Source of the DNA: Peptococcaceae bacterium BRH_c8a | GTDB taxonomy: Bacteria > Bacillota > Desulfotomaculia > Desulfotomaculales > Desulfallaceae | Length of the DNA: 64,000 nucleotides | Direction: 5' to 3' | NCBI GenBank assembly: GCA_000961575.1 | Contig: LADP01000024.1 | Location: 124,001 to 188,000, forward strand | In this document: positions 787 through 14,615 of the stretch, one piece after another | Layout: each line of letters begins with the position of its first letter | How positions within the stretch are numbered: the first letter of the stretch is position 1 | Program-made: the position numbers and the translations under genes | Notes under the pieces: model-generated | The model's database searches: none | What the model was told of the DNA's origin: nothing | The model's input: the letters and a program-made list of their open reading frames with translations, nothing else

Positions 787-2091
787 ATGACTAGAACCAA
801 TGATGAACTGTTAGCCAGGAAGCAGCAATTAATAGCCAGAGGTATTTCCAACACAACCAACATATTTGTCAAAGAGGCCAAGGGTGCATCCATCATCGAC
901 GTGGAAGGTAACGAATATATTGATTTTTACGCCGGAATCGGTACTTTAAACGCCGGCCATTGCCCGCCCCCGGTGGTAGAGGCCATTAAAAACCAAGCGG
1001 AGAAACTGCTGCATACCTGTTTTATGGTTACCATGTATGAACCTTACCTGGACCTGGCGGAGAAATTGATTGCCATTTCGCCAGGCAGTTACGACAAACG
1101 GGCCATGTTTATCAACAGCGGCGCCGAGTGTGTGGAAAACGCAGTAAAAATAGCCCGGGCTTACACCAAACGTACGGGTGTTATCTCATTTGAGTGCGCC
1201 TTCCACGGTCGGACGTTGATGACCATGACCCTGACCAGTAAAGTGAAGCCCTACAAGTTCGGGTTTGGGCCTTATGCGCCGGAAGTATATAAAATACCAT
1301 CGGCTTACTGCTACCGCTGTTACTATCGCTCCACCTACCCCGGTTGCGGTATGCACTGTTTAGAACAGTTTGATCGCATGTTTGCCGCCGAAGTGGCACC
1401 CGAGAACGTGGCAGCGATGATCATCGAGCCTGTACAGGGTGAAGGCGGTTTCATTGTGCCGCCCAAAGAGTTTCTGCCCGGGCTGCAGGAAATTTGCCGC
1501 AAGCACGGCATAGTCTTTATCTCCGACGAAGTACAAACCGGTTTCGGACGCACCGGCAAAATGTTTGCCAGCGAGCACTGGGGACTAGAGCCTGACCTGA
1601 TGACTGTGGCCAAGTCCATTGCCTCCGGCATGCCGCTGAGCGGTGTTGTGGGCCGGGCGGAAATCATGAACGCACCCGAACCCGGACACGTTGGCGGCAC
1701 TTATGGCGGCAACCCTGTTTCCTGTGCCGCGGCGCTAGCAACTATTGATTATATGGAAAAAGAAAACCTGGTTGAACGCGCCCGTCAGATTGGCGAAAAA
1801 ACGCGCGCCCGCATGCTTGAGATGAAGGATAAATACCCGGTCATTGGTGACGTACGCGGACTGGGTGCCATGAATGCTATTGAACTGGTTAAGAACCGTG
1901 AAACCAAAGAACCGGCCAAGGATGAGGCGGCTGCCGTATCCAAGTACTGCATTGAAAACGGTGTCATTGTAATCGGCGCGGGCATTTTTAGTAACGTCAT
2001 TAGAACTCTAATTCCGCTTGCCATTACCGATGAGCAGCTTAACCGCGGATTGGATGTCCTGGAACAAGCCGTTGCTAAATGCCAAGGTTAA
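787..2091 (+). CDS. gabT: Class III PLP aminotransferase, GABA (4-aminobutyrate) type
   Basis: This 434-residue fold-type I class III aminotransferase would move the amino group of GABA (or a related omega-amino acid) to 2-oxoglutarate, giving succinic semialdehyde and glutamate in the cytoplasm. Visible motifs are NSGAECVENAVKIAR near 110, IIEPVQGEGG near 215, SDEVQTGFGRTGK near 247 with the PLP-pyridine aspartate, and AKSIASGMPLSG with the Schiff-base lysine at K276. An insertion carries C175-x2-C178-x8-C187-x3-C191, a knuckle-like cysteine set absent from E. coli GabT. ACGGAGGT precedes the ATG. The AOR gene starts 35 bases downstream, so the semialdehyde could be oxidised by its neighbour. 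Acetylornithine or other omega-amino acids remain possible substrates; the GABA call rests mainly on context. Confidence 0.8.
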   Translation: MTRTNDELLARKQQLIARGISNTTNIFVKEAKGASIIDVEGNEYIDFYAGIGTLNAGHCPPPVVEAIKNQAEKLLHTCFMVTMYEPYLDLAEKLIAISPGSYDKRAMFINSGAECVENAVKIARAYTKRTGVISFECAFHGRTLMTMTLTSKVKPYKFGFGPYAPEVYKIPSAYCYRCYYRSTYPGCGMHCLEQFDRMFAAEVAPENVAAMIIEPVQGEGGFIVPPKEFLPGLQEICRKHGIVFISDEVQTGFGRTGKMFASEHWGLEPDLMTVAKSIASGMPLSGVVGRAEIMNAPEPGHVGGTYGGNPVSCAAALATIDYMEKENLVERARQIGEKTRARMLEMKDKYPVIGDVRGLGAMNAIELVKNRETKEPAKDEAAAVSKYCIENGVIVIGAGIFSNVIRTLIPLAITDEQLNRGLDVLEQAVAKCQG

Positions 2092-2126: not shown

Positions 2127-3860
2127 ATGAAAGGTTTTTACGGTAAACTACTGCGCGTTGACTTAACCGGGAAAACATATGCGGTAGAAGAGATTCCGGA
2201 ACAAGTGCTGCGGCAGTACCTGGGGGGCAAGGGACTTGGGTCATATCTGCTGCTGGAAAACGTCGGCCCGGGAGTTGACCCCCTGGGACCGGAAAATAAA
2301 CTGATTTTTACTACCGGCGCCGCCACCGACACGGTTATGGTAGGCAGCAGTCGTTACGGCGTTTATAGTCGCTCGCCACAGACGGGTGGCTACGCCGAAT
2401 CTTATTCCGGCGGCCGGGTGGCACCGGTCATGCGCCGCACCGGCTACGACGCCATAATTATTGAAGGTATTGCCAGTGCACCCGTCTGCCTGGAAATAAG
2501 CGACGGCGGGGTGGTATTTCACGATGCCTCATCGCTTTGGGGTATGGACACCCATGATGCCGAAGAGGCTGCTTTAGCCAAAGCGGGTGGGTCGGAGGCC
2601 CAGGCTCTGGTAATCGGTCCGGCCGGTGAAAAATTAGTTAGTTTTGCTTGCATCGAAAACAACCGCTGGCATTCTGCCGGGCGAACCGGTATGGGTGCTG
2701 TAATGGGAGCCAAGAAACTAAAAGCTGTAGTTTTTCATGGCCGTGCTCAGGCCCAAATCGCAGACCCGAAATTGCTAAAGGAAGTAACCAAAAAAATCCG
2801 GGATGCCGGCAAGGATAACCCCGGAGTGGAAAATTATCGTACCTATGGCACTACAGTAATGGTGCGAATCATGAACGGAGCCAAGGCCTTCCCCAACCGC
2901 TACTGGAACCGGGGCGTAGATCCCAACTGGGAGAATCTCAGCGGCGACACGCTGCTGCAGCAGCACAAGGTTAAGCCCGGCGCCTGCCCCAACTGCTTTA
3001 TGGCCTGCGGCCAGCACACTGTTATTGCTTCCGGTGAGTACGCCGGACTGGAAATTGAAGGGCCGGAATACGAAACAATATTCGCTTTCGGGGGTCTTTG
3101 TTCAATTAATCGGCTGGACCAGGTGGCTTATCTAAACGACTTGTGCGATAGGCTTGGTATGGACACCATCACCGCCGGCAATTTGGTAGGTCTGGTAATG
3201 GAAGGGGTGGAGCGAGGCCTTATCGACGCCCCGGTCAGATACGGTGATATGGACGCTGCCGTTGAACTGGTCAAACAAATCGCTGAGCGTAAGGGCCTTG
3301 GTGCAACCCTGGCTCTGGGCATCAAAGAGGCAGCGGCCCGCCTGGGTCTTGAGGAATTAGCTATCCATGTAAAGGGTTTGGAACCCTCCGGTTATGACCC
3401 CCGGGTGCTTAAAGGAATGGGTCTGGCTTATGCCACCTCCGCCAGGGGCGCCTGTCACTTGCGGGCCACCTTTTACAAGCCCGAACTGGCGGGTATGATT
3501 GACCCGTCCACCACCGAAGGCAAGGCTGAGCTGTTCATTGATTTTGAAAACCGGCTCACCATATTCAACGCCCAAATCCTGTGCGTATTTTTTAGGGATC
3601 TAATTCCCTGGGAACTGCTGGTTGATTTGAACAAAGCGTTAACCGGCTGGGATTATACCAAGGAAGAACTGTGGGCAGTGGCCAACCGGATTATTGACTC
3701 CAACCGCGCATTCAATCTGCGCCAAGGATTCACCAGAGCCGACGACAATCTGCCGGCCAGGTTATACAAGGAAAAGATTAACGACGGGCAAAACGGGATT
3801 ACCCAAGCCGAACTGGCGCAGATGGTGGATGATTACTATCGCTTGCGCAATTGGATCTAA
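2127..3860 (+). CDS. aor: Tungsten-containing aldehyde:ferredoxin oxidoreductase, stand-alone AOR
   Basis: A 577-residue AOR-family enzyme, slightly shorter than the about 605-residue Pyrococcus AOR. It oxidises an aldehyde to the acid and reduces ferredoxin using a bis-tungstopterin and one [4Fe-4S] cluster. The N-terminal AFOR domain (about 1-205) begins FYGKLLRVDLTG and includes GGKGLGSYLL and the GPAGE...GRTGMGAVMGAKKLKA region. Cluster ligands are C287-x2-C290-x3-C294 and the distant C486 (ILCVFF), the family spacing. It follows the GABA-type aminotransferase behind a GGGGAGGTG ribosome site, so succinic semialdehyde is the likely substrate (inference). No ferredoxin subunit is encoded beside this copy, unlike the second AOR. 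The family is certain, the substrate is not. Confidence 0.9.
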   Translation: MKGFYGKLLRVDLTGKTYAVEEIPEQVLRQYLGGKGLGSYLLLENVGPGVDPLGPENKLIFTTGAATDTVMVGSSRYGVYSRSPQTGGYAESYSGGRVAPVMRRTGYDAIIIEGIASAPVCLEISDGGVVFHDASSLWGMDTHDAEEAALAKAGGSEAQALVIGPAGEKLVSFACIENNRWHSAGRTGMGAVMGAKKLKAVVFHGRAQAQIADPKLLKEVTKKIRDAGKDNPGVENYRTYGTTVMVRIMNGAKAFPNRYWNRGVDPNWENLSGDTLLQQHKVKPGACPNCFMACGQHTVIASGEYAGLEIEGPEYETIFAFGGLCSINRLDQVAYLNDLCDRLGMDTITAGNLVGLVMEGVERGLIDAPVRYGDMDAAVELVKQIAERKGLGATLALGIKEAAARLGLEELAIHVKGLEPSGYDPRVLKGMGLAYATSARGACHLRATFYKPELAGMIDPSTTEGKAELFIDFENRLTIFNAQILCVFFRDLIPWELLVDLNKALTGWDYTKEELWAVANRIIDSNRAFNLRQGFTRADDNLPARLYKEKINDGQNGITQAELAQMVDDYYRLRNWI

Positions 3861-4157: not shown

Positions 4158-4187
4158 GCCACCCCCATAGGGGGTGGCATTTTGTTT
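4158..4187 (+). terminator. Intrinsic terminator-like hairpin after the first AOR
   Basis: GCCACCCCC (4158-4166) and GGGGGTGGC (4170-4178) form a perfect 9-bp stem with a 3-base loop, followed by ATTTTGTTT. The downstream arm includes the -24 element of the patA sigma-54 promoter, so terminator and promoter overlap. Confidence 0.65.
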
Positions 4188-4191
4188 GCTT
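4175..4191 (+). promoter_or_regulatory. Sigma-54 (-24/-12) promoter of patA
   Basis: TGGCATTTTGTTTGCTT matches TGGCAC-N5-TTGCW: GG at 4176-4177, GC at 4188-4189, exactly 10 bases between. The predicted start of transcription is near 4201, about 60 bases before the patA ATG. The upstream palindromes at 3901-3916 and 4083-4098 are suitable activator sites. Confidence 0.8.
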
Positions 4192-4260: not shown

Positions 4261-5607
4261 ATGAATAAGAATTATGACAATATAATTGCTGCATCACAAA
4301 AATATTTGAATCTGATTGCCCGGGAAGAGCTGACCACCGAGGAAAAAGAATGGGTGGTCAAAGAGGTTGTAGAAGGATTCCGGGAAAATGTGAACCCGGG
4401 GTTCTTAGACTATCGCAAATCTGTATCCACCGACTACACATCCGTAGAATGGAAAGACTCCGGTTCCACCTTCACCGATATCTGGGGCAAGGAATTTATA
4501 GACTGTCTGGGCGGTTACGGTATTTATAACGTAGGACACCGGCACCCCAAGGTAATGAAAGCGGTCACCGACCAGCTTAAACGCCAGGCCCTGCACAGTC
4601 AGGAACTTCTGGATCCGCTGCGCGCTTTTTTGGCTAAACTGGTGGCCGATATTACTCCCGGTGACCTGCAATATGTGTTTTTTGTCAACAGCGGCACCGA
4701 ATCTGTTGAAGCCGCCATAAAGTTTGCTAAAATGTACACCGGCAGGCGCGGCTTTATATCCACCACCAGGGCTTTCCACGGTAAATCCCTGGGGTCGCTT
4801 AGCGCCACCGCCAAGGGCGTATTCCGTAAGCCCTTTCTACCGCTAATGCCGGGTTTCCATCATGTGCCTTACGGTAATGCCGATGCTGTGGCCATGATGC
4901 TGGAAAGCTGTGCTTTTGTAGGTGAAGACGTAGCGGCGGTAATCGTAGAACCCATCCAGGGTGAGGGGGGCGTAATCATACCGCCGGACGACTACTTGCC
5001 CAGACTGCGCGAACTTTGCGACCAGTACGGCACCCTGTTAATCCTGGATGAAGTGCAGACCGGGATGGGACGCACCGGAACAATGTTCGCCTGTGAGCGC
5101 AACAATGTAGTGCCCGACCTCCTTTGCCTGGCCAAGGCTTTTGGCGGTGGAATTATGCCCATCGGTGCCACCGTGGCCAGAAAACCAATATGGGAAAAGT
5201 TAATAGAAAATCCCTTCCTACACACCACTACTTTCGGCGGCAACCCCGTGTGCTGCGCGGCAGCTATCGCTAATATTAATGTACTGATGGAAGAAAAACT
5301 GCCTCAGCGTTCCGCTGAATCAGGTGCTTATATGATGAGCAAACTGTTGCCGCTGGCCCGGCAGTACCCGGCCGTGGTTGATGCGGTGCGGGGCAGGGGC
5401 CTGATGATCGGCATTGAGTTTGTAAACGACGAACTGGGTTATGAAGTGGCCAAAGGATTGTTTGCCCGGGGCGTACTAGTTGCCGGCACCCTGATCAATG
5501 CCAAGTCCATCCGTATTGAACCACCCCTCACCATTAGTAGGGAACAGCAGGACCAAGTAATTGAAAGGTTGGCTGACACGTTAAAGGAAGTTAACGCCAG
5601 CCTATAA
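4261..5607 (+). CDS. patA: Putrescine aminotransferase
   Basis: A 448-residue class III aminotransferase that strongly resembles E. coli PatA (YgjG), recalled rather than aligned, including family-specific stretches such as [41 protein letters not shown] and [15 protein letters not shown]. PatA converts putrescine and 2-oxoglutarate to 4-aminobutanal (which cyclises to 1-pyrroline) and glutamate. The PLP aspartate lies in [12 protein letters not shown] and the Schiff-base lysine is K292 in [21 protein letters not shown] precedes the ATG. Transcription probably starts at the sigma-54 promoter at 4175-4191. Polyferredoxin and AOR genes follow after a 198-base gap, so the aldehyde product is likely passed to the AOR. 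Cadaverine may also be a substrate. Confidence 0.9.
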
Positions 5608-5614
5608 AACAAAA

Positions 5615-5772
<158 letters not shown>

Positions 5773-5805
5773 TATACTTGAGAATTTTATAAAGGAGGCT
5801 GTGCT

Positions 5806-6204
5806 GTGAAGTTTAACTACCAGCCTGAAAAATGTATTGGCTGCCACCTGTGTGAACTGGCCTGTTCCGGGCACAAGGAAGGGCAATTTAACCCGGGCCT
5901 GGCGCGGTTGCAGGTGATTTCTTGCTATCGGTCGGACACGCTGGTTAACGAAGCTAGGCTCTGCGACCTGTGTCTAAATTGCGTGGAAGTCTGCCCGACG
6001 GGCGCCATCCTGTCCGGTGAGCAGGGGTTGACCCTGGATCGAGACCAGTGTACGAGTTGCGGCACCTGTGTGGAGGCCTGTCCCACCGGGGTTCTGCGGG
6101 CCGACAAAGAGGGTTTTCCCCTGTTATGTGACGGTTGCCAGGGCAATCCGCGCTGCGTTAATTGGTGCCCCCATGGGGCGCTAACCGCCAGGGAGGTGAA
6201 TTGA
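5806..6204 (+). CDS. AorA-like polyferredoxin, electron-transfer subunit of the second AOR
   Basis: A 132-residue iron-sulfur protein with four cysteine clusters: C10-x2-C-x2-C-x3-C (CIGCHLC), a second in CDLCLNCVEVCP, a third in CTSCGTCVEACP and a variant C-x2-C-x5-C-x3-CP at the C-terminus. It should bind four [4Fe-4S] clusters and move electrons from the tungsten subunit. The family is that of HycB/AorA-type subunits; Aromatoleum AorA is the characterised relative. The GTG start is set by AAAGGAGG 7 bases upstream. The AOR gene begins 1 base after its stop, so the two are translationally coupled and probably form one complex. The FAD subunit AorC known from Aromatoleum is not encoded here, so the electron acceptor is probably free ferredoxin. 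Confidence 0.88.
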   Translation: MKFNYQPEKCIGCHLCELACSGHKEGQFNPGLARLQVISCYRSDTLVNEARLCDLCLNCVEVCPTGAILSGEQGLTLDRDQCTSCGTCVEACPTGVLRADKEGFPLLCDGCQGNPRCVNWCPHGALTAREVN

Positions 6205-6205
6205 T

Positions 6206-7969
6206 ATGCCTGGTTATCAAGGAAAAATTTTACGCATTAACCTTACCGCAGGCAGTTCTGTGGTTGAAAAGCTGAACCCAAAATGGGCAGGCTTGTTTCT
6301 AGGCGGCAAGGGCCTGGGCATCAAGTACCTGTACGAGGAACTGGCCCCGGGTATTGATGCGCTAGCTCCAGATAATAAACTAATCCTAATCACCGGCCCA
6401 TTTACCGGCACGGTGGTACCCTGTTCGGGCAAACTTTCCATTGTCACCAAGTCACCGGGTACAGGCACCATTTTGGACTGCTCCATTGGCGGTACTGCCG
6501 CCGTCGAACTAAAACGCGCCGGTTATGACGCGGTTATCATTGAGGGCAAAGCTGCCGAGCCTGTCTACCTGTGGATAGAAGACAATCGGGTAGAGATAAA
6601 AAATGCCGGTGAATGTCGTGGATTAGGCTGTCATGCCACTGAAAATAAACTTAAAGAAGCGCATGGTGAAGACAGCAGTGTGCTATCCATCGGCCCCGCC
6701 GGGGAGAACATGGTATCCTTTGCCTGCATTTCATCAGAACTGTACCGTCAGGCCGGTCGAGGCGGTGTAGGTGCTGTTATGGGCAGCAAGAATTTAAAGG
6801 CCGTTGCGGTAAGGGGTACAGGCGGGGTGTTGGCCGCCGACGCAGCCAAACTAATGGATGTTGCTTATAATGCCTTTAAAAATGATCTTTTAACGGATAC
6901 CAACCTGTGGGCATACACCGATGGAACCCCCATGCTCGTAGAGTTATCTCAGACTACCGGTATTTTACCGACCAATAATTTTCAGCAGGGCACTTTTGAC
7001 GCGTTTAATCAAATTAAGTCTGAATCGGTGGCCGCGGTACGGACCGCTAAAAAAGGCTGTACCAGCTGCGGACTAGGCTGCGGCAACTTTGTAAGGGCCG
7101 GGCGTTCGGCTGTTGAGGGGCCTGAATATGAAACCCTATCCATTGCCGGTTCCAACTGCGGCATAGGTAGCCTGGAAGCCATTGTGGAATTCAACCGCCT
7201 ATGCGATGATCTGGGGTTGGACACTATTTCCGCCGGCGGGGTAACTGCCTTTGCCATGGAACTCACCGAAAAAGGTATTCATGATTTCGGAATTCGCTTT
7301 GGGGATGTAGAAAAATATTTGCAGGTACCCGGCCTCATTGCCGCCGGCGATGGCCTTGGCAAAGAACTGGCCCGGGGTGTGCGGGCTCTGGCCCAAATTT
7401 ACGGTGGTCAAGATTATGCCATGCAGGTTAAAGGATTGGAATTCCCGGGTTATGACCCCCGGGGGTCTTGGGGCATGGGCCTTGCTTTTGCCACAGCGCC
7501 GCGCGGTGCCTGTCACATGAGTGCCTGGCCGGCAGCAGACGAGGCTTACGGAGAACTTGACCCGTTTACCATTGAGGGTAAAGCCGGGCTGGTAAAGGAT
7601 TTGCAACATTACAACGCCGCTAAATTTTCGCTCATCCTGTGCGATTTTTGGGCTCTATCCTTTGATGTGATGGCCGAAATGTTGGCCGCCCTGCTGGGCC
7701 GGGAAATCACTGCCGGAGACCTGGAACTGGCCGGAGAACGCATTTTTAACCTGGCTCGCCTGTTCAATATCCGCGAAGGGTTTTCCAGCCAAGATGACGT
7801 TTTGCCGCAGCGTATATACAGTCAACCACTGCCGTCCGGCGCCACTGCGGGCAAAACCCTGCCCGAGGCGGATTTCAAAAACATGCTGGCCCAATACTAC
7901 AGCCTGCGGGGTTGGGATGAATCCGGCCAACCCGGTCAGGACAAGTTGAACCTGCTCGGGCTCCGTTAA
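6206..7969 (+). CDS. Tungsten aldehyde:ferredoxin oxidoreductase, AorB-like catalytic subunit
   Basis: A 587-residue AOR with both AFOR domains: YQGKILRINLT at the N-terminus, GGKGLGIKYL near 32, GPAGENMVSFACIS and GRGGVGAVMGSKNLKA near 190. The [4Fe-4S] ligands are C285-x2-C288-x3-C292 (CTSCGLGC) and C479 (LILCDFW). It is clearly different in sequence from the first AOR, so the pair probably handles different aldehydes. GGGAGGTG lies inside the end of the polyferredoxin gene, consistent with coupled translation. Lying downstream of patA in a cluster with an agmatinase, its natural substrate is probably 4-aminobutanal/1-pyrroline, giving GABA; this is inferred from position. A broad aldehyde-detoxifying role is the main alternative. 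Confidence 0.9.
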   Translation: MPGYQGKILRINLTAGSSVVEKLNPKWAGLFLGGKGLGIKYLYEELAPGIDALAPDNKLILITGPFTGTVVPCSGKLSIVTKSPGTGTILDCSIGGTAAVELKRAGYDAVIIEGKAAEPVYLWIEDNRVEIKNAGECRGLGCHATENKLKEAHGEDSSVLSIGPAGENMVSFACISSELYRQAGRGGVGAVMGSKNLKAVAVRGTGGVLAADAAKLMDVAYNAFKNDLLTDTNLWAYTDGTPMLVELSQTTGILPTNNFQQGTFDAFNQIKSESVAAVRTAKKGCTSCGLGCGNFVRAGRSAVEGPEYETLSIAGSNCGIGSLEAIVEFNRLCDDLGLDTISAGGVTAFAMELTEKGIHDFGIRFGDVEKYLQVPGLIAAGDGLGKELARGVRALAQIYGGQDYAMQVKGLEFPGYDPRGSWGMGLAFATAPRGACHMSAWPAADEAYGELDPFTIEGKAGLVKDLQHYNAAKFSLILCDFWALSFDVMAEMLAALLGREITAGDLELAGERIFNLARLFNIREGFSSQDDVLPQRIYSQPLPSGATAGKTLPEADFKNMLAQYYSLRGWDESGQPGQDKLNLLGLR

Positions 7970-8146: not shown

Positions 8147-8374
8147 ATGAGGGTAGCAGTGGAGCTCAAAGGTCCCCTTGCGGTGAGCCGGGGCGAAAAG
8201 CACATTATCCTCGTGGTTCCTCCGCGTGCAACAGTGCGCGATGTATTAATTAAACTTGGCCTGGATGAAAAACATGTCGGCCTGCTGGCTATAAATAACG
8301 TTAAAGTAAACCTGGACAGCTGCCTGGGGGAAGATGTTAATTTAACCGTCTTTCCCGTGGTTGCTGGTGGGTAG
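8147..8374 (+). CDS. MoaD/ThiS-like sulfur carrier protein
   Basis: A 75-residue beta-grasp protein ending VFPVVAGG. The C-terminal Gly-Gly is the thiocarboxylate-forming tail of MoaD and ThiS. MoaD donates sulfur to make the dithiolene of molybdopterin, from which tungstopterin is made. A dedicated copy behind two AOR genes is common in AOR loci and supports a cofactor-supply role. It starts about 180 bases after the second AOR, and a strong hairpin follows its stop. A ThiS role in thiamine synthesis is possible but no thi genes are nearby. Confidence 0.85.
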   Translation: MRVAVELKGPLAVSRGEKHIILVVPPRATVRDVLIKLGLDEKHVGLLAINNVKVNLDSCLGEDVNLTVFPVVAGG

Positions 8375-8584: not shown

Positions 8585-10165
8585 GTGGAATTAGGAACAT
8601 ATAAATACACCAACATTGTGGCTATTGTTTTTTGTATTTACATGGTGATCATGCTCTTTATCGGGTGGTACTCTTCCAAAAAAATAACCGGGGCCGCCGA
8701 TTACATTGTGGCCGGCAGGCGCCTAAACTTGTTTTTTGCCACCGGTACTTTGTTTGCCACCTGGTTTTGTGCCGGCACCATGATGGGCGGCGCGGCCAAT
8801 GCTTACCTGTTTGGTAATCAGGGGGTTATTTTCGACCCCTGGGGAGCGGCGCTGTGCTTGCTGCTAACCGGTCTTTTCTTCGCTCGGTTGATGCGCCGGG
8901 GTGGATACATGACCCTGGTGGACTTTTTTGAAATCCGTTACGGCCGGGAAATGGGCATGCTGTCCACTGCCGTAATAGTTATAGCCGAATCGGGCTGGGT
9001 GGGAGCTCAGCTAGTGGCCTTTGGTGCCATTCTGCAAATGTTCCTGGGTTTACCCCTGTGGGTAGGTATTTTGGTGTCCTGCGTGGTACTGGTCGCCTAT
9101 ACTTATATGGGCGGCATGTGGTCGGTTACTCTGACCGACGTAGTTCAAATGATTATCTTATCAGCTGGTTTGCTAATCCTGCTGCCGGCGGTGATATCTC
9201 ATGTCGGCGGGTGGAGCAATTTCATTGCTAATGCTAGCAACTGGGCGGAATTGCCCGCCTTTGCCATGGGACCCGCCGGTGAATCCGGTTACCTTGGTTA
9301 CATTGGATTGCCGGGCTGGTTCTACTACGCTGGTGCTTGGCTGGCCATTGGTCTGGGCAGCATCCCGGCCCAGGACCTGATGCAGCGGGTATTATCTTCC
9401 AAGGATGAAAAAACCGCTGTCCGGGCTTCTTATCTTGCGGCCCTGCTTTATGTTACCATTGGCATGATCCCGGTTATCGCCGGTATCGCCATGTTTGAAC
9501 TGATGCCCGAATTAGGTGTCCCCGACACGGAAATGATTTTACCCTGGCTGGCTATTAACTTCTTGCCGCCAATATTAACCGCCATATTTGTGGCCGGTCT
9601 GGTGGCGGCGCTGATGTCCAGTTCGGATAGCGCATTGCTGGCGGCTTCTGCGGTTATCGGCTACAACGGGCTGCGTTACTTTAAACCAGACGCCAGCGAG
9701 AAGGACACCCTGCGCCTGACTCGGATGATGGTGCCGGTGGTGGCCATTGCTTCTCTGCTTCTGGCCTTGTACGCCGAAACAATCTATCGGCTGATGGTCA
9801 TTGCTTGGAGCGTGATCCTGGTGGGCTTGGTAGCGCCTTATGTAGGGGGTTACTTTTGGAAGAAATCCAATAAACCCGGCGCTTTGGCGGCGATGGCCGG
9901 CGGTTTCCTGTCCTGGATCGCCTTTATATTCTACTACCTGCCTGCCACCAGTGAAGCCAATGTCGGCATTATTGAAGAAGGCGTGGTTTACACCGAGTGG
10001 GCCATCTGGGACGCAGTGTATATCGGTTCGGTACCGGCTTTTATTGTATCCATCATCATGTTGGTGGTGGTATCGCTATTGACACAAAAGAGCAGTCCGC
10101 CCATGCCCCTAAAAGACATGGACGGTAACGTTATGCCGGTTAAAAACTGGTTTGGCGGTATTTAA
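8585..10165 (+). CDS. Sodium:solute symporter (SSS/SLC5 family)
   Basis: A 526-residue polytopic membrane protein with about 13 hydrophobic segments. Features include GWYSSKKITGAADYIVAGRRL near the first loop, FATWFCAGTMMGGAANAYLFG, TYMGGMWSVTLTDVVQMIIL near residue 175 and AALMSSSDSALLAASAVIGYN near residue 340, all typical of the SSS family (PutP, PanF and relatives). It would import an organic solute with sodium. The start is a GTG behind AAGAGGAGG; an ATG 3 bases earlier in another frame stops at once. It lies 22 bases before the agmatinase gene, so agmatine, putrescine or a guanidino compound is the likely cargo. That substrate is contextual, since characterised polyamine carriers are mostly APC or ABC systems. 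Confidence 0.88.
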   Translation: MELGTYKYTNIVAIVFCIYMVIMLFIGWYSSKKITGAADYIVAGRRLNLFFATGTLFATWFCAGTMMGGAANAYLFGNQGVIFDPWGAALCLLLTGLFFARLMRRGGYMTLVDFFEIRYGREMGMLSTAVIVIAESGWVGAQLVAFGAILQMFLGLPLWVGILVSCVVLVAYTYMGGMWSVTLTDVVQMIILSAGLLILLPAVISHVGGWSNFIANASNWAELPAFAMGPAGESGYLGYIGLPGWFYYAGAWLAIGLGSIPAQDLMQRVLSSKDEKTAVRASYLAALLYVTIGMIPVIAGIAMFELMPELGVPDTEMILPWLAINFLPPILTAIFVAGLVAALMSSSDSALLAASAVIGYNGLRYFKPDASEKDTLRLTRMMVPVVAIASLLLALYAETIYRLMVIAWSVILVGLVAPYVGGYFWKKSNKPGALAAMAGGFLSWIAFIFYYLPATSEANVGIIEEGVVYTEWAIWDAVYIGSVPAFIVSIIMLVVVSLLTQKSSPPMPLKDMDGNVMPVKNWFGGI

Positions 10166-10187: not shown

Positions 10188-11099
10188 ATGATTGACACCC
10201 ACCCGTGGGGTGAGCTCCTTACGAATAAACGCGATGAAGCGCGGGTCTGCATCATGGGGGTTCCCTTCGATCTGGCGGTGAGCTGCGGTAAGGGAGCCTA
10301 CCAGGCTCCAGAAAAAATCAGGTATCTTTCTCGATACCTGCCAGCCACCACTGAAGATGGCGTCTATCTGAACCAGGTTAAGGTTTTTGATGCCGGTGAT
10401 GTCCAAGTGGATCTGAACTGGGAGCGTTACTTCAAGACCGTGGAGGATAGGGCCTATGCCCTGCTAACCACCGGTAAGTTCTGCCTGTTTCTGGGCGGGG
10501 ATCACTCGGTGACTATCCCACTGCAAAAGGCTTTTGGCCGCTATAATATTGCGGAAAGAGGCGGTAAGCGGGAAAGCGGTAAAATCGGCGTCATCCACTT
10601 CGATGCCCACTGTGACCTTTGTAATTCATATGACGGTCATCACTGGTCTCACGCCTGCACCGAACGCAGAAGTTTGGACGAGGTGATTAATCCCGGGGAT
10701 CTTACCTTGCTGGGTATCCGATCTTACGAAAAGGAAGAGCTGGATTTCTTGCGCCAGCATCCCGAAATCACTGTCATACAGGCCCGCGACGTATACAGTC
10801 GGGGTATCGCGGCTCTGTATCGGGATATGGAAGCGCATTATCGTAATTATGAAGCTATTTACTTTACGCTGGACATTGATGTGCTGGATCCTGCTTTTGC
10901 GCCGGGCACCGGCACCCCCGAAGCCGGCGGCCTAACCAGCAGAGAACTCTTGGAACTGGTCAAACTAATCGTGGCTAATCTACCGGTAAAGGCCATGGAT
11001 ATAGTAGAAGTGTCCCCCGGCATGGATCGCTCAGATATTACCTGCTGGGCAGCGCTAAAGATAATATACGAAGTGTTTGGCTGTTTAAGCGGCCGGTAA
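10188..11099 (+). CDS. speB: Agmatinase-family ureohydrolase
   Basis: A 303-residue member of the arginase/agmatinase family. The binuclear manganese ligands are present: H106 in GGDHSV, D139-x-H141-x-D143 in FDAHCD, and D229 and D231 in LDIDVLDPAF; the loop GTGTPEAGG follows. Agmatinase hydrolyses agmatine to putrescine and urea; relatives act on guanidinobutyrate, arginine or formiminoglutamate. Together with patA in the same island it supports putrescine formation from agmatine. If it is instead a guanidinobutyrase it would yield GABA directly and still feed the pathway. Its stop lies 10 bases from the stop of the convergent regulator gene, with no obvious terminator between. Confidence 0.85.
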   Translation: MIDTHPWGELLTNKRDEARVCIMGVPFDLAVSCGKGAYQAPEKIRYLSRYLPATTEDGVYLNQVKVFDAGDVQVDLNWERYFKTVEDRAYALLTTGKFCLFLGGDHSVTIPLQKAFGRYNIAERGGKRESGKIGVIHFDAHCDLCNSYDGHHWSHACTERRSLDEVINPGDLTLLGIRSYEKEELDFLRQHPEITVIQARDVYSRGIAALYRDMEAHYRNYEAIYFTLDIDVLDPAFAPGTGTPEAGGLTSRELLELVKLIVANLPVKAMDIVEVSPGMDRSDITCWAALKIIYEVFGCLSGR

Positions 11100-11109
11100 A
11101 ATAAATTAG

Positions 11110-12897
11110 TTAGATGTTATTTACTTTAATACCGTACTGCTTGATTTTGCGGTATAATGTGGCCCGGCTGATGCCCATCAGGCGGGCTATTTCTTTTTTG
11201 CTCAGGTTGTGTCCGGAAAGTTCCACGATTTTTTGGGCCAACAGGTCTCTTTCGGCGTCCTCTAGATGGTGTTTCAGGTGGATGTTCTCCGGGTCGTGTC
11301 CCAGCCAGTGGTTTCTAATTTTACCTGGGATGCTGTTTAGGGAAATGATTTTACCGGACTCCATATTTACAGCGTACTCCACTGCGTTTTCAAGTTCCCT
11401 TACATTGCCCGGCCAGTGGTACCGGGTAAAGGCCTGGACAACGTTATCGCTGCAATGTTCAATGCCCTTATCCAGAAGCCCGCAGTATTTTTTAAGGAAA
11501 CATTCCATCAGCACGATTATATCCTCCCGGCGGCTGCGCAGCGGCGGTATCAACATGGGAATCACGTTTAGCCGGTAATAAAGATCCTCGCGAAATTCCC
11601 CTGCGGCACACATTGCTTCCAGGTTGCGGTTGGTAGCGGCAATGATGCGTACGTCCACCGGGATGGGGGTATTGCCTCCCACCCGCTCGACAATGCGCCG
11701 CTGTAAAATGTGCAGAATCTTTACCTGCAGATGCAGCGGTAAATCCCCAATTTCATCTAAAAAAATAGTGCCACCGCCGGCCAGCTCGAATTTTCCCGGG
11801 CGTCCGCCCCGGCTGGCCCCGGTAAAGGCCCCTTCTTCGTAGCCGAAAAGCTCACTTTCCAATAATGTTTCCGGGATAGCCCCGCAATTAACTATGACCA
11901 GCGGTTTTTTGCGCCGGGGGCTGGCGTAGTGTATGGCCCGGGCAAATAGTTCTTTGCCGGTGCCGCTTTCGCCGGTGATTAATATGGTGGAATTGCTCCG
12001 GGCCACCCGCAGGGCCTGGTATTTCACCTCTACAATATTTTTGCTATTGCCCACGATATGATCCAGTTCCAGCGCGACCTTATTATCAGTCAGATCATAG
12101 GCCAGTTGGCGGACGACGGACATGTTGCGGAACGAAATGACCGCTCCCACAGTTGCGCCGCCGCTGCAGATAGGGGTGACAGTAACCAAGAAATGCATTT
12201 GGTATGGAGGTGTGCCGTAGATTTCTTCTTTTTCTTCGTAACCTTGACCCGTTTTAAGTACCTCGGAAATCGGGGAACGGGGCCATATTTCAGTGATAAG
12301 GCGCCCCAGCATATATTTTTTCTCAATCCCGATAATCGACTCGGCATAGCTATTGCAATGAGTTATCGCGCCGCACCGGTCTACCGAAATTAAACCCTGG
12401 TTAATGGATTCCACTATGATTTGCATTTTGTTGGAGTCTATCTCCAGCCTTTTGTAAGCTTCGGTTTCAGATACCCGGGATGCCAGCAGGAAAGCCATGC
12501 GGTGCAGAAAATTTTTAAGTTGTTCCTTTTTGTCCTGGAGTTTGTCTTTCTGGCTTTTGTCAAATGCCACCAGTGACATGGCCCCGATGACCTTTCCGTT
12601 TAACTTGATGGGGCAGCAAATCTCCCCAACCTCACCAATTAAAATGGGGCCGTACATACTGTCCTGCGGGTCATCGATAACAAAGGACATGCCGGTGCGA
12701 AACACCCGTGTATACAGGAATTCTTCATCAGGGTGGTAGGCTTCGGCGTCCTTAGTGCCCACTAGTTCCCTGTATTTGCCGGTAGCGGCGACAATGGTGT
12801 ATTCATCGTCCAAAATTTGGGTTTCCACGTCCAGCACTGCAGAAATTGCCTCAGCTACCTGCTGGGCAGTATTGGCTATGACGGATAACAGCGACAT
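11110..12897 (-). CDS. Sigma-54-dependent enhancer-binding regulator (GAF-like, PAS, AAA+, Fis HTH)
   Basis: About 595 residues from an ATG at 12897; AAGGAAG lies about 9 bases upstream, so an alternative GTG at 12906 that falls inside that signal is less likely. An N-terminal sensory domain (about 1-160, GAF-like) is followed by a PAS domain (about 175-285), a short linker and a sigma-54 AAA+ domain with Walker A GESGTGKE, GAFTGA loop at about 356-361 and Walker B TIFLDEIGDL. A Fis-type helix-turn-helix ends the protein (KKEIARLMGISRATLYRKI). It would remodel sigma-54 polymerase at -24/-12 promoters. It is divergent from gdh and convergent with the agmatinase, so the catabolic genes are its probable targets. 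The inducer is unknown. Confidence 0.92.
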   Translation of the reverse strand: MSLLSVIANTAQQVAEAISAVLDVETQILDDEYTIVAATGKYRELVGTKDAEAYHPDEEFLYTRVFRTGMSFVIDDPQDSMYGPILIGEVGEICCPIKLNGKVIGAMSLVAFDKSQKDKLQDKKEQLKNFLHRMAFLLASRVSETEAYKRLEIDSNKMQIIVESINQGLISVDRCGAITHCNSYAESIIGIEKKYMLGRLITEIWPRSPISEVLKTGQGYEEKEEIYGTPPYQMHFLVTVTPICSGGATVGAVISFRNMSVVRQLAYDLTDNKVALELDHIVGNSKNIVEVKYQALRVARSNSTILITGESGTGKELFARAIHYASPRRKKPLVIVNCGAIPETLLESELFGYEEGAFTGASRGGRPGKFELAGGGTIFLDEIGDLPLHLQVKILHILQRRIVERVGGNTPIPVDVRIIAATNRNLEAMCAAGEFREDLYYRLNVIPMLIPPLRSRREDIIVLMECFLKKYCGLLDKGIEHCSDNVVQAFTRYHWPGNVRELENAVEYAVNMESGKIISLNSIPGKIRNHWLGHDPENIHLKHHLEDAERDLLAQKIVELSGHNLSKKEIARLMGISRATLYRKIKQYGIKVNNI

Positions 12898-13002
12898 GTG
12901 TTCCACTTCCTTGGTCGGCCGGATTGCCAGGGGCCTGTTTTGGTATTAAATTCTGTGCTGCGGCAAAGAAGTCCTTTCGGGGTCAGGGCCGAATTAGGTA
13001 TC

Positions 13003-13249: not shown

Positions 13250-13266
13250 TGGCATCCTTTTTGCTT
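13250..13266 (+). promoter_or_regulatory. Sigma-54 (-24/-12) promoter of glutamate dehydrogenase
   Basis: TGGCATCCTTTTTGCTT has GG at 13251-13252 and GC at 13263-13264 with 10 bases between, and nearly repeats the patA promoter. The predicted transcript starts near 13276, about 44 bases before the ATG. Confidence 0.85.
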
Positions 13267-13319: not shown

Positions 13320-14615
13320 ATGAACAAAGAAATCAATAGCTTTGAAATTGTTAACGGCCTAATCGATTCATCGGTAAAGAAACTGAATTTGGGCAGGGCG
13401 GTTTATGACCTACTCAGCCAACCGCAGCGTGTGCTGACCGTAACCATCCCGGTACAAATGGATGACGGCTCGGTAAAAATGTATACTGCTTACCGCTCCC
13501 AGCATAACAATGCTCTGGGTCCATATAAAGGCGGCATCCGGTTCCACCAAGATGTCGACCTGGATGAAGTAAAAGCTCTTTCCTCCTGGATGACCCTGAA
13601 GTGTGCCGTGCTGAACGTCCCGTATGGCGGCGGCAAGGGCGGCGTGATTGTAAACCCCAAGGAGCTTTCCTTCGGCGAAATGGAGAGGTTGTGCCGTGGT
13701 TACGTGCGTGCCATAGCGCCGGTGTTGGGAAGCGAAGTTGACGTGCCTGCTCCCGACGTAGGTACCAACGGCCAGGTCATGGCCTGGATGATGGATGAAT
13801 TTTCGCGGTTCAAAAACCACAATGAATTTGGTGTCATTACGGGTAAGCCGGTTATCCTGGGCGGTTCGCGGGGTCGGATAGAAGCCACCTCCCGCGGCTG
13901 TGTGTTTACCATTCGTGAGGCTGCCAGAGCCATTGGCCTGAAACTTAAAGATGCCACCGTGGTGGTGCAGGGATTCGGTAACGTGGGCGCTATTGCGGCC
14001 AGGTTGCTAAAGGATGACGGCTGTCGGATTTTAGCGGTCAGTGATACCAGCGGAGCTATTTATAACCCGCGCGGATTGGATATTTCGACCTTGGAAGAAC
14101 ACAAGGCCTGCACCGGCAGTGTAAAGGATTTCCCGGGCAGTCAAAGCATTACCAATGAAGAACTGCTGGCATTAAGCTGTGACATTCTGGTGCCGGCCGC
14201 CCTGGAGAACCAGATTACCGGGGCGAACGCCGCCCAGATTAAAGCCAAAATTGTGGCGGAAGGGGCCAACGGTCCCACCACCCCGGAGGCCGACCGCATC
14301 CTGGCTGCCAGAAACATCATGGTGTTGCCTGACGTACTGGCTAACGCCGGCGGCGTGACGGTATCCTACTTCGAGTGGGTGCAGAACAACAGCGGGTATT
14401 ACTGGTGCGAGGACGAAGTAAACGAGCGCCTGGAAAGAAAGATGGTTGAGGCCTTTAACGAAGTTTACTGCCTCTACAAGAAACGCAAGGATGTCGACAT
14501 GAGAGGCGCCGCATACATGGTGGCCATCTCCCACCTGGCTGAAGCAATGCGCATCCGCGGTTGGCTTGGTACCCAAATGTACTCCGATGCCAAGTGTGAA
14601 TTCAAATTAGCTTAG
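13320..14615 (+). CDS. gdhA: Glutamate dehydrogenase
   Basis: A 431-residue Glu/Leu/Phe/Val dehydrogenase. The substrate domain contains NVPYGGGKGGVIVNP with the catalytic-site lysines and PAPDVGTNGQVMAWMMDE. The Rossmann domain contains VVVQGFGNVGAIAARLL near residue 220. Catabolic GDH converts glutamate to 2-oxoglutarate, ammonia and reduced nicotinamide. Both aminotransferases of the island use 2-oxoglutarate and make glutamate, so this enzyme closes the nitrogen cycle of the pathway. A strong sigma-54 promoter lies directly upstream and two enhancer-binding proteins flank the gene. Cofactor preference (NAD or NADP) cannot be decided by eye. Confidence 0.93.
   Translation: MNKEINSFEIVNGLIDSSVKKLNLGRAVYDLLSQPQRVLTVTIPVQMDDGSVKMYTAYRSQHNNALGPYKGGIRFHQDVDLDEVKALSSWMTLKCAVLNVPYGGGKGGVIVNPKELSFGEMERLCRGYVRAIAPVLGSEVDVPAPDVGTNGQVMAWMMDEFSRFKNHNEFGVITGKPVILGGSRGRIEATSRGCVFTIREAARAIGLKLKDATVVVQGFGNVGAIAARLLKDDGCRILAVSDTSGAIYNPRGLDISTLEEHKACTGSVKDFPGSQSITNEELLALSCDILVPAALENQITGANAAQIKAKIVAEGANGPTTPEADRILAARNIMVLPDVLANAGGVTVSYFEWVQNNSGYYWCEDEVNERLERKMVEAFNEVYCLYKKRKDVDMRGAAYMVAISHLAEAMRIRGWLGTQMYSDAKCEFKLA

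Follow-up and report, generated by a model that had tools for sequence, protein, structure and literature searches.

A WorS-WorL gene pair without an FAD subunit: a Class II tungsten oxidoreductase with a putative role in putrescine degradation

The stretch of Peptococcaceae bacterium BRH_c8a DNA analysed here (64,000 nucleotides, hereafter the window) encodes two aldehyde oxidoreductases in one gene island, AOR1 and AOR2, the second being preceded by a gene for a small polyferredoxin. Is this pair an Aromatoleum-type AorAB enzyme that has lost its FAD subunit AorC, as the original prediction proposed, or an enzyme of another kind, and which aldehydes would the two AORs oxidise?

The small gene, worS (5806..6204, forward strand), starts with GTG at 5806, ends with TGA at 6202-6204 and encodes an AorA-like subunit of 132 aa with four [4Fe-4S] clusters and no C-terminal helix. 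Sixteen of its 17 cysteines make four sets of four (C10/13/16/20, C53/56/59/63, C82/85/88/92 and C108/111/117/121) and are invariant across 11 aligned homologues. The AOR2 (WorL) gene (6206..7969, forward strand; ATG at 6206, stop at 7967-7969) encodes the predicted catalytic tungsten subunit, of 587 aa, for which oxidation of 4-aminobutanal is proposed; a Pfam profile search finds both AFOR domains, PF02730 and PF01314, far above cutoff. A single base (T, 6205) separates the worS stop from the AOR2 start, as had been noticed originally, and direct reading of the sequence places an AOR2 ribosome-binding site, AGGGAGGTGA, within the 3' end of worS. The coupled translation that had been put forward is thus plausible, and reinitiation is not needed. 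All AOR2 orthologues keep this junction, the two genes being separated by about -63 to +1 nt when longest-ORF starts are used, and its conservation is more than chance. To note, a repeat, GTCAGGAGTCAGGAGTCAGG, lies between patA and worS at 5620-5645, with a reverse-complement-like copy downstream (5757-5773); it has nine exact matches in the genome versus none for a reversed control and is possibly a small mobile repeat.

A 2026 survey of more than 4,000 tungsten oxidoreductases distinguished five classes by their subunits (PMC13328260). Class I is WorL alone (65% of the family); Class II pairs WorL with a four-cluster WorS, lacks WorN and WorABC, uses ferredoxin (16% of the family) and is divided into 38 clades, most of them without a characterised member; Class III, as in Aromatoleum, is WorL, WorS and an FAD subunit; and Class IV, as in Acetomicrobium, has WorABC (PMC13328260). 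The window pair has both AFOR domains and an adjacent four-cluster WorS, and neither WorN nor WorABC accompanies it in the window or in nine full-length orthologous loci, so that the FAD subunit (WorN/AorC) of Class III and the WorABC module of Class IV are both absent. WorS carries no Tat signal or membrane domain of the Class V (YdhV-like) type, its clusters beginning at residue 10 with no leader by direct reading, and its four complete Cys sets differ from the three-cluster small subunit of BamBC. The pair is therefore an ordinary Class II (WorLS) enzyme, a class defined by composition and not by ancestry, and AOR1 fits Class I. Since WorLS without an FAD subunit is a published class, the pair is of a known kind and presents no anomaly. 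The source genome has 12 AFOR_C matches, of which the identical ones on contigs C1 and C11 may reflect a duplication in the assembly.

The relatives of AOR2 form a sharp group at 51-78% identity, the next best sequences reaching at most 46%. Outside the window this group comprises ten loci: five from related genomes (L029-L033), a truncated second AOR2 copy (L034), and one each from Anoxynatronum buryatiense (L044), Desulfofundulus thermobenzoicus (L045), a SAR324 MAG (L046) and a Syntrophomonadaceae MAG (L047). WorS lies upstream in all ten, though in L047 the contig ends within it and leaves a fragment. No WorN/AorC or WorABC gene was found within 4.5 kb in any of the nine full-length AOR2 loci, each with at least 5.6 kb of downstream flank, and the identical searches did assign 17 rows to Class III and 11 to Class IV. 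This evidence on subunit composition does not include the short AOR2 genes of L035 and L034, which are fused or truncated, although L034 is counted among the ten for WorS and patA. In L034 (6823-8614) AOR2 is cut after about 267 residues and runs into a Na+/H+ antiporter ORF, and contig C29 of the same genome (G008) carries another AOR2, which is complete. In L035, a MAG contig, worS is apparently fused to an AOR2 fragment (543-1676 and 3-392), probably through misassembly, as the contig end translates to the adapter-like DWSSDVCSSDL.

Two trees, a 109-row FastTree and a 58-row mixture-model tree, place AOR2 outside the branch that holds PfAOR and Classes III/IV, among mainly Class II and Class I enzymes. 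A tree constrained to group it with Classes III/IV is worse by 127 log-likelihood units and is rejected (AU p = 1.06e-6). From this separate branch it follows that AOR2 is not an Aromatoleum-type enzyme minus AorC, and that AOR1 did not arise from it by recent duplication. An Aromatoleum-like enzyme deprived of its AorC is thus ruled out by the branch and by the lack of a cap gene in 9/9 full-length loci. The original observation itself stands: this is a WorS-WorL pair without an FAD subunit and with no AorC-like gene nearby, the next genes being worX-like, an SSS symporter and agmatinase. It is its reading as an AorAB from which AorC is missing that fails, AOR2 belonging to a branch where WorLS without an FAD subunit is usual; an absent AorC does not imply an incomplete Aromatoleum enzyme.

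Whether the pair forms filaments, as AorAB is reported to do, can be addressed from the end of WorS. In Aromatoleum, an AorA mutant ending at D137 (delta-helix) yields only AB and ABC, and the filament is abolished (PMC10413684); a review applies the same C-terminal-helix criterion to Moorella (PMC12096430). The WorS model (pLDDT 92.7) ends in a strand at 126-129. It matches over its full length the WorS of 9mqx (Z 19.8), PfWOR5 (Z 17.1) and AorA (Z 17.0), aligning to AorA residues 3-137; 9mqx, an electron-bifurcating tungsten AOR, is taken to be Acetomicrobium AmWOR1 from the structure title and the literature. After the last cysteine 11 residues remain in the window WorS and 10-19 in the AOR2 clade, versus 26-56 in Classes III/IV (clade versus III/IV, Mann-Whitney p = 4.5e-6, the loci being partly interdependent). 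With its 11-aa tail and terminal strand, WorS lacks the C-terminal AorA helix on which filaments depend. Because WorS stops where the filament-free AorA mutant was truncated, a soluble WorLS heterodimer is predicted; on tail length, model and AorA alignment, filament formation is not supported.

AOR1 (2127..3860, forward strand; PF02730 and PF01314) is a Class I tungsten oxidoreductase without a small subunit, for which oxidation of succinate semialdehyde is proposed. It had been described as devoid of an AorA, and this is borne out: gabT lies 35 bp upstream, the roughly 400 bp downstream hold no Fe-S gene, and a small subunit or WorS occurs in 0/5 orthologous loci. In these five loci, too, AOR1 is next to gabT. 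By eye, AOR1-like genes at 58-59% identity lie beside succinyl-CoA synthetase (sucCD)- and 2-oxoacid oxidoreductase-like genes (L127) or an Fe-type alcohol dehydrogenase (L128 and L129); as judged from these sequences, such neighbours fit C4 acids for the AOR1 homologues. In a Desulfopila MAG (L099), the start of a different Class I AOR gene overlaps with gabT (52%).

The quaternary forms of the two AORs thus probably differ, as had been suggested, Class I being WorL alone and Class II WorLS. The accompanying suggestion of different electron partners finds no such backing: ferredoxin is the electron carrier of the characterised enzymes in Class I as well as in Class II (PMC13328260). By analogy, AOR2-WorS probably passes electrons to ferredoxin, and AOR1 probably does so too. 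With ferredoxin as the default for both, differing partners are unlikely, and worS-AOR2 has no linked flavin or NAD module.

The gene order around the pair is gabT, AOR1 / patA, worS, AOR2, worX, Na+ symporter, agmatinase / sigma-54 activator (reverse strand), gdh. On the forward strand lie gabT (787..2091), a 4-aminobutyrate aminotransferase (TIGR00700, 605 bits, cutoff 506.65); patA (4261..5607), a putrescine aminotransferase (NF008570, 736 bits, cutoff 612); worX (8147..8374), a small ThiS/MoaD-like protein of WOR operons; a Na+/solute symporter of the SSS family (8585..10165, PF00474); speB (10188..11099), an agmatinase (TIGR01230, 212 bits, cutoff 174.3); and gdh (13320..14615), a glutamate dehydrogenase (PF00208/PF02812). 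The scores of GabT, PatA and agmatinase all exceed their NCBIfam cutoffs. WorX has no Pfam match and is 36-40% identical to the product of the gene after AOR2 in relatives; its name is based on gene position and on the description in PMC13328260. The transporter slot is filled by the SSS symporter in the window versus an AA_permease (GABA permease-like; L029:10256-11701, PF00324) in relatives. The order gabT-AOR1-patA-worS-AOR2 is kept in L029, L030, L032 and L034, and no plasmid relatives above 60% identity were found.

A sigma-54 dependent activator (11110..12906, reverse strand, PF00158), with close homologues in L029 and L034, is accompanied by two promoter-like sites on the forward strand: a -24/-12 type site, TGGCATTTTGTTTGCT, at 4175..4190, 71 bp before patA, and a second at 13250..13265, 55 bp before gdh. 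Such sites of the TGGCAY form number two in the window versus 0.28 expected, this form having been picked after the result of the strict pattern with CACG, whose matches stay at chance level, was seen. The site pattern recurs upstream of patA in L029, L030, L032 and L034, and a site of this type also precedes gdh in the window, L029 and L034.

This operon content makes 4-aminobutanal the most likely substrate of AOR2. A patA gene lies within 4 kb of AOR2 in 6/10 clade loci versus 0/90 other WORs (Fisher p = 1.8e-7, relatedness ignored), and speB and gabT occur in the same clusters. No patA lies close to AOR2 in Anoxynatronum, D. thermobenzoicus, the Syntrophomonadaceae MAG or the C29 copy of G008, so other amino-aldehydes may also be substrates within the clade. 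A saccharopine-dehydrogenase-like gene is found near AOR2 in L044, L046 and L047, where patA is missing or divergent; that of L044 falls in the carboxynorspermidine synthase family, far under the model cutoff, and those of L046 and L047 were recognised by eye. Full-length ALDHs found in the genome are limited to a PutA/P5CDH match and an MMSDH-type enzyme, neither of which reaches the cutoff for aminobutyraldehyde or succinate-semialdehyde dehydrogenase.

The second-shell Thr, Glu, Tyr and His are kept in both AORs (T241, E309, Y416 and H437 in AOR2). The AOR2 clade shows a two-residue insertion that creates Y[TS]DGT (YTDGT in the window) just before T241, with the acidic D239 beside it; an acidic residue at 246; and, in 9/10 members, Trp at the position of the substrate-stacking aromatic Tyr468 of AaAOR. 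AOR1 has Thr at the Tyr468 position and a conserved Arg/Lys nearby. To judge from the sequences, the AOR2 residues would suit a positively charged substrate and those of AOR1 a negatively charged one; the predicted AOR2 structure (six sequences, pLDDT 50.8) was left out of the pocket reasoning.

From these data we infer tungsten, the heterodimer, ferredoxin and the two substrates: it is fairly probable that worS-AOR2 is a Class II tungsten oxidoreductase, a soluble and ferredoxin-linked WorLS heterodimer acting on 4-aminobutanal, and that AOR1 takes succinate semialdehyde. In such a scheme SpeB would convert agmatine to putrescine and PatA putrescine to 4-aminobutanal. AOR2, with its W-bis-pyranopterin and one [4Fe-4S] cluster, would oxidise this aldehyde to GABA, the four [4Fe-4S] clusters of WorS wiring the electrons to soluble ferredoxin. 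GabT would yield succinate semialdehyde, to be oxidised to succinate by the stand-alone AOR1, again with electrons to ferredoxin, and Gdh would recycle glutamate from the transaminases. Chances are about even that such dedicated 4-aminobutanal:ferredoxin and succinate-semialdehyde:ferredoxin oxidoreductases make up a tungsten-dependent pathway from agmatine/putrescine to succinate, both oxidations taking place at ferredoxin potential.

Other readings of the pair have to be weighed against this one. It could be a Class II, ferredoxin-linked WorLS serving general aldehyde detoxification or other amino-aldehydes instead of a putrescine pathway, in keeping with the broad substrate range of many AORs (PMC12096430, PMC10413684) and with the clade members devoid of a nearby patA. 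The strength of the patA association, the clade-specific YTDGT insertion and the single conserved sigma-54 site preceding both patA and worS-AOR2 make this rather unlikely. Operation of AOR2 in reverse, as a carboxylic acid reductase, is very improbable: AORs are able to reduce acids with low-potential electrons (PMC10413684), but the reduction is driven at very low potential only, and the context is catabolic (agmatinase, two transaminases, an uptake transporter and glutamate dehydrogenase).

A further reading, in which the pair is an AorAB nanowire of the Aromatoleum type and a gene elsewhere in the genome supplies its FAD or bifurcating cap, is also very improbable. In its favour are the four-cluster fold that the window WorS shares with AorA and with the WorS of 9mqx, and the presence elsewhere of AorC-like genes (31-34% identity for the three best) and of NuoF/WorB-like genes at C7, C20 and C40. 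A distant AorC that belongs to the complex, which would have changed the picture, was looked for, but every AorC-like gene proved to have other neighbours: on C20 another WorLS, on C45 a CODH-like gene together with an Fe-S protein, and on C39 genes resembling glutamate synthase, the C45 and C39 neighbourhoods being read from sequence and not by family search. Supply of AorC from elsewhere was rejected on these grounds; the NuoF/WorB-like genes may still encode a further subunit. Also against the nanowire are the missing filament helix, the branch separate from III/IV and the lack of a cap gene near any of the orthologous loci. The C20 locus (L038) contains two WorL-WorS pairs and an AorC-like gene and constitutes a Class III-like WOR; it also encodes a possibly HdrA-like protein of 896 aa with 31 Cys.

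The Class II reading with 4-aminobutanal provides, through gene context, a concrete substrate candidate for one Class II clade. Should this pathway exist, polyamine breakdown in these anaerobes would deliver ferredoxin-level electrons, not NADH, and would depend on tungsten. No relevant report linking an AOR with putrescine, succinic semialdehyde or aminobutyraldehyde was found in the open-licence library searched, which suggests that the novelty lies in the putrescine pathway context with two dedicated tungsten enzymes, the enzyme class being already known. The NAD-dependent putrescine route proceeds through PatA, aminobutyraldehyde dehydrogenase, GabT and succinate-semialdehyde dehydrogenase. 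The two transaminases and the intermediates are the same here, whereas both aldehyde steps are apparently carried out by tungsten-ferredoxin enzymes.

Among characterised tungsten enzymes, PfASOR/WOR5 (6x1o) and CbGOR resemble the window pair in composition, with WorL, a four-cluster WorS and no flavin or bifurcation subunit. The WorL sequence of PfASOR/WOR5 is distant (218 bits) and its gene context differs; AOR2 keeps Thr241 and Tyr416, both of which PfASOR has lost. Aromatoleum aromaticum AorABC (Class III, 8c0z) shares the AorA/AorB homologues, their order and the four clusters, whereas the window pair has no AorC, no C-terminal filament helix, Trp441 in place of the stacking Tyr468, and a separate branch. 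Acetomicrobium mobile AmWOR1 (Class IV) is the best PDB match, for AOR2 by sequence (472 bits) and for WorS by fold, as given above; compared with it, the window pair has a shorter WorS tail, dispenses with the WorABC module and belongs to a separate branch.
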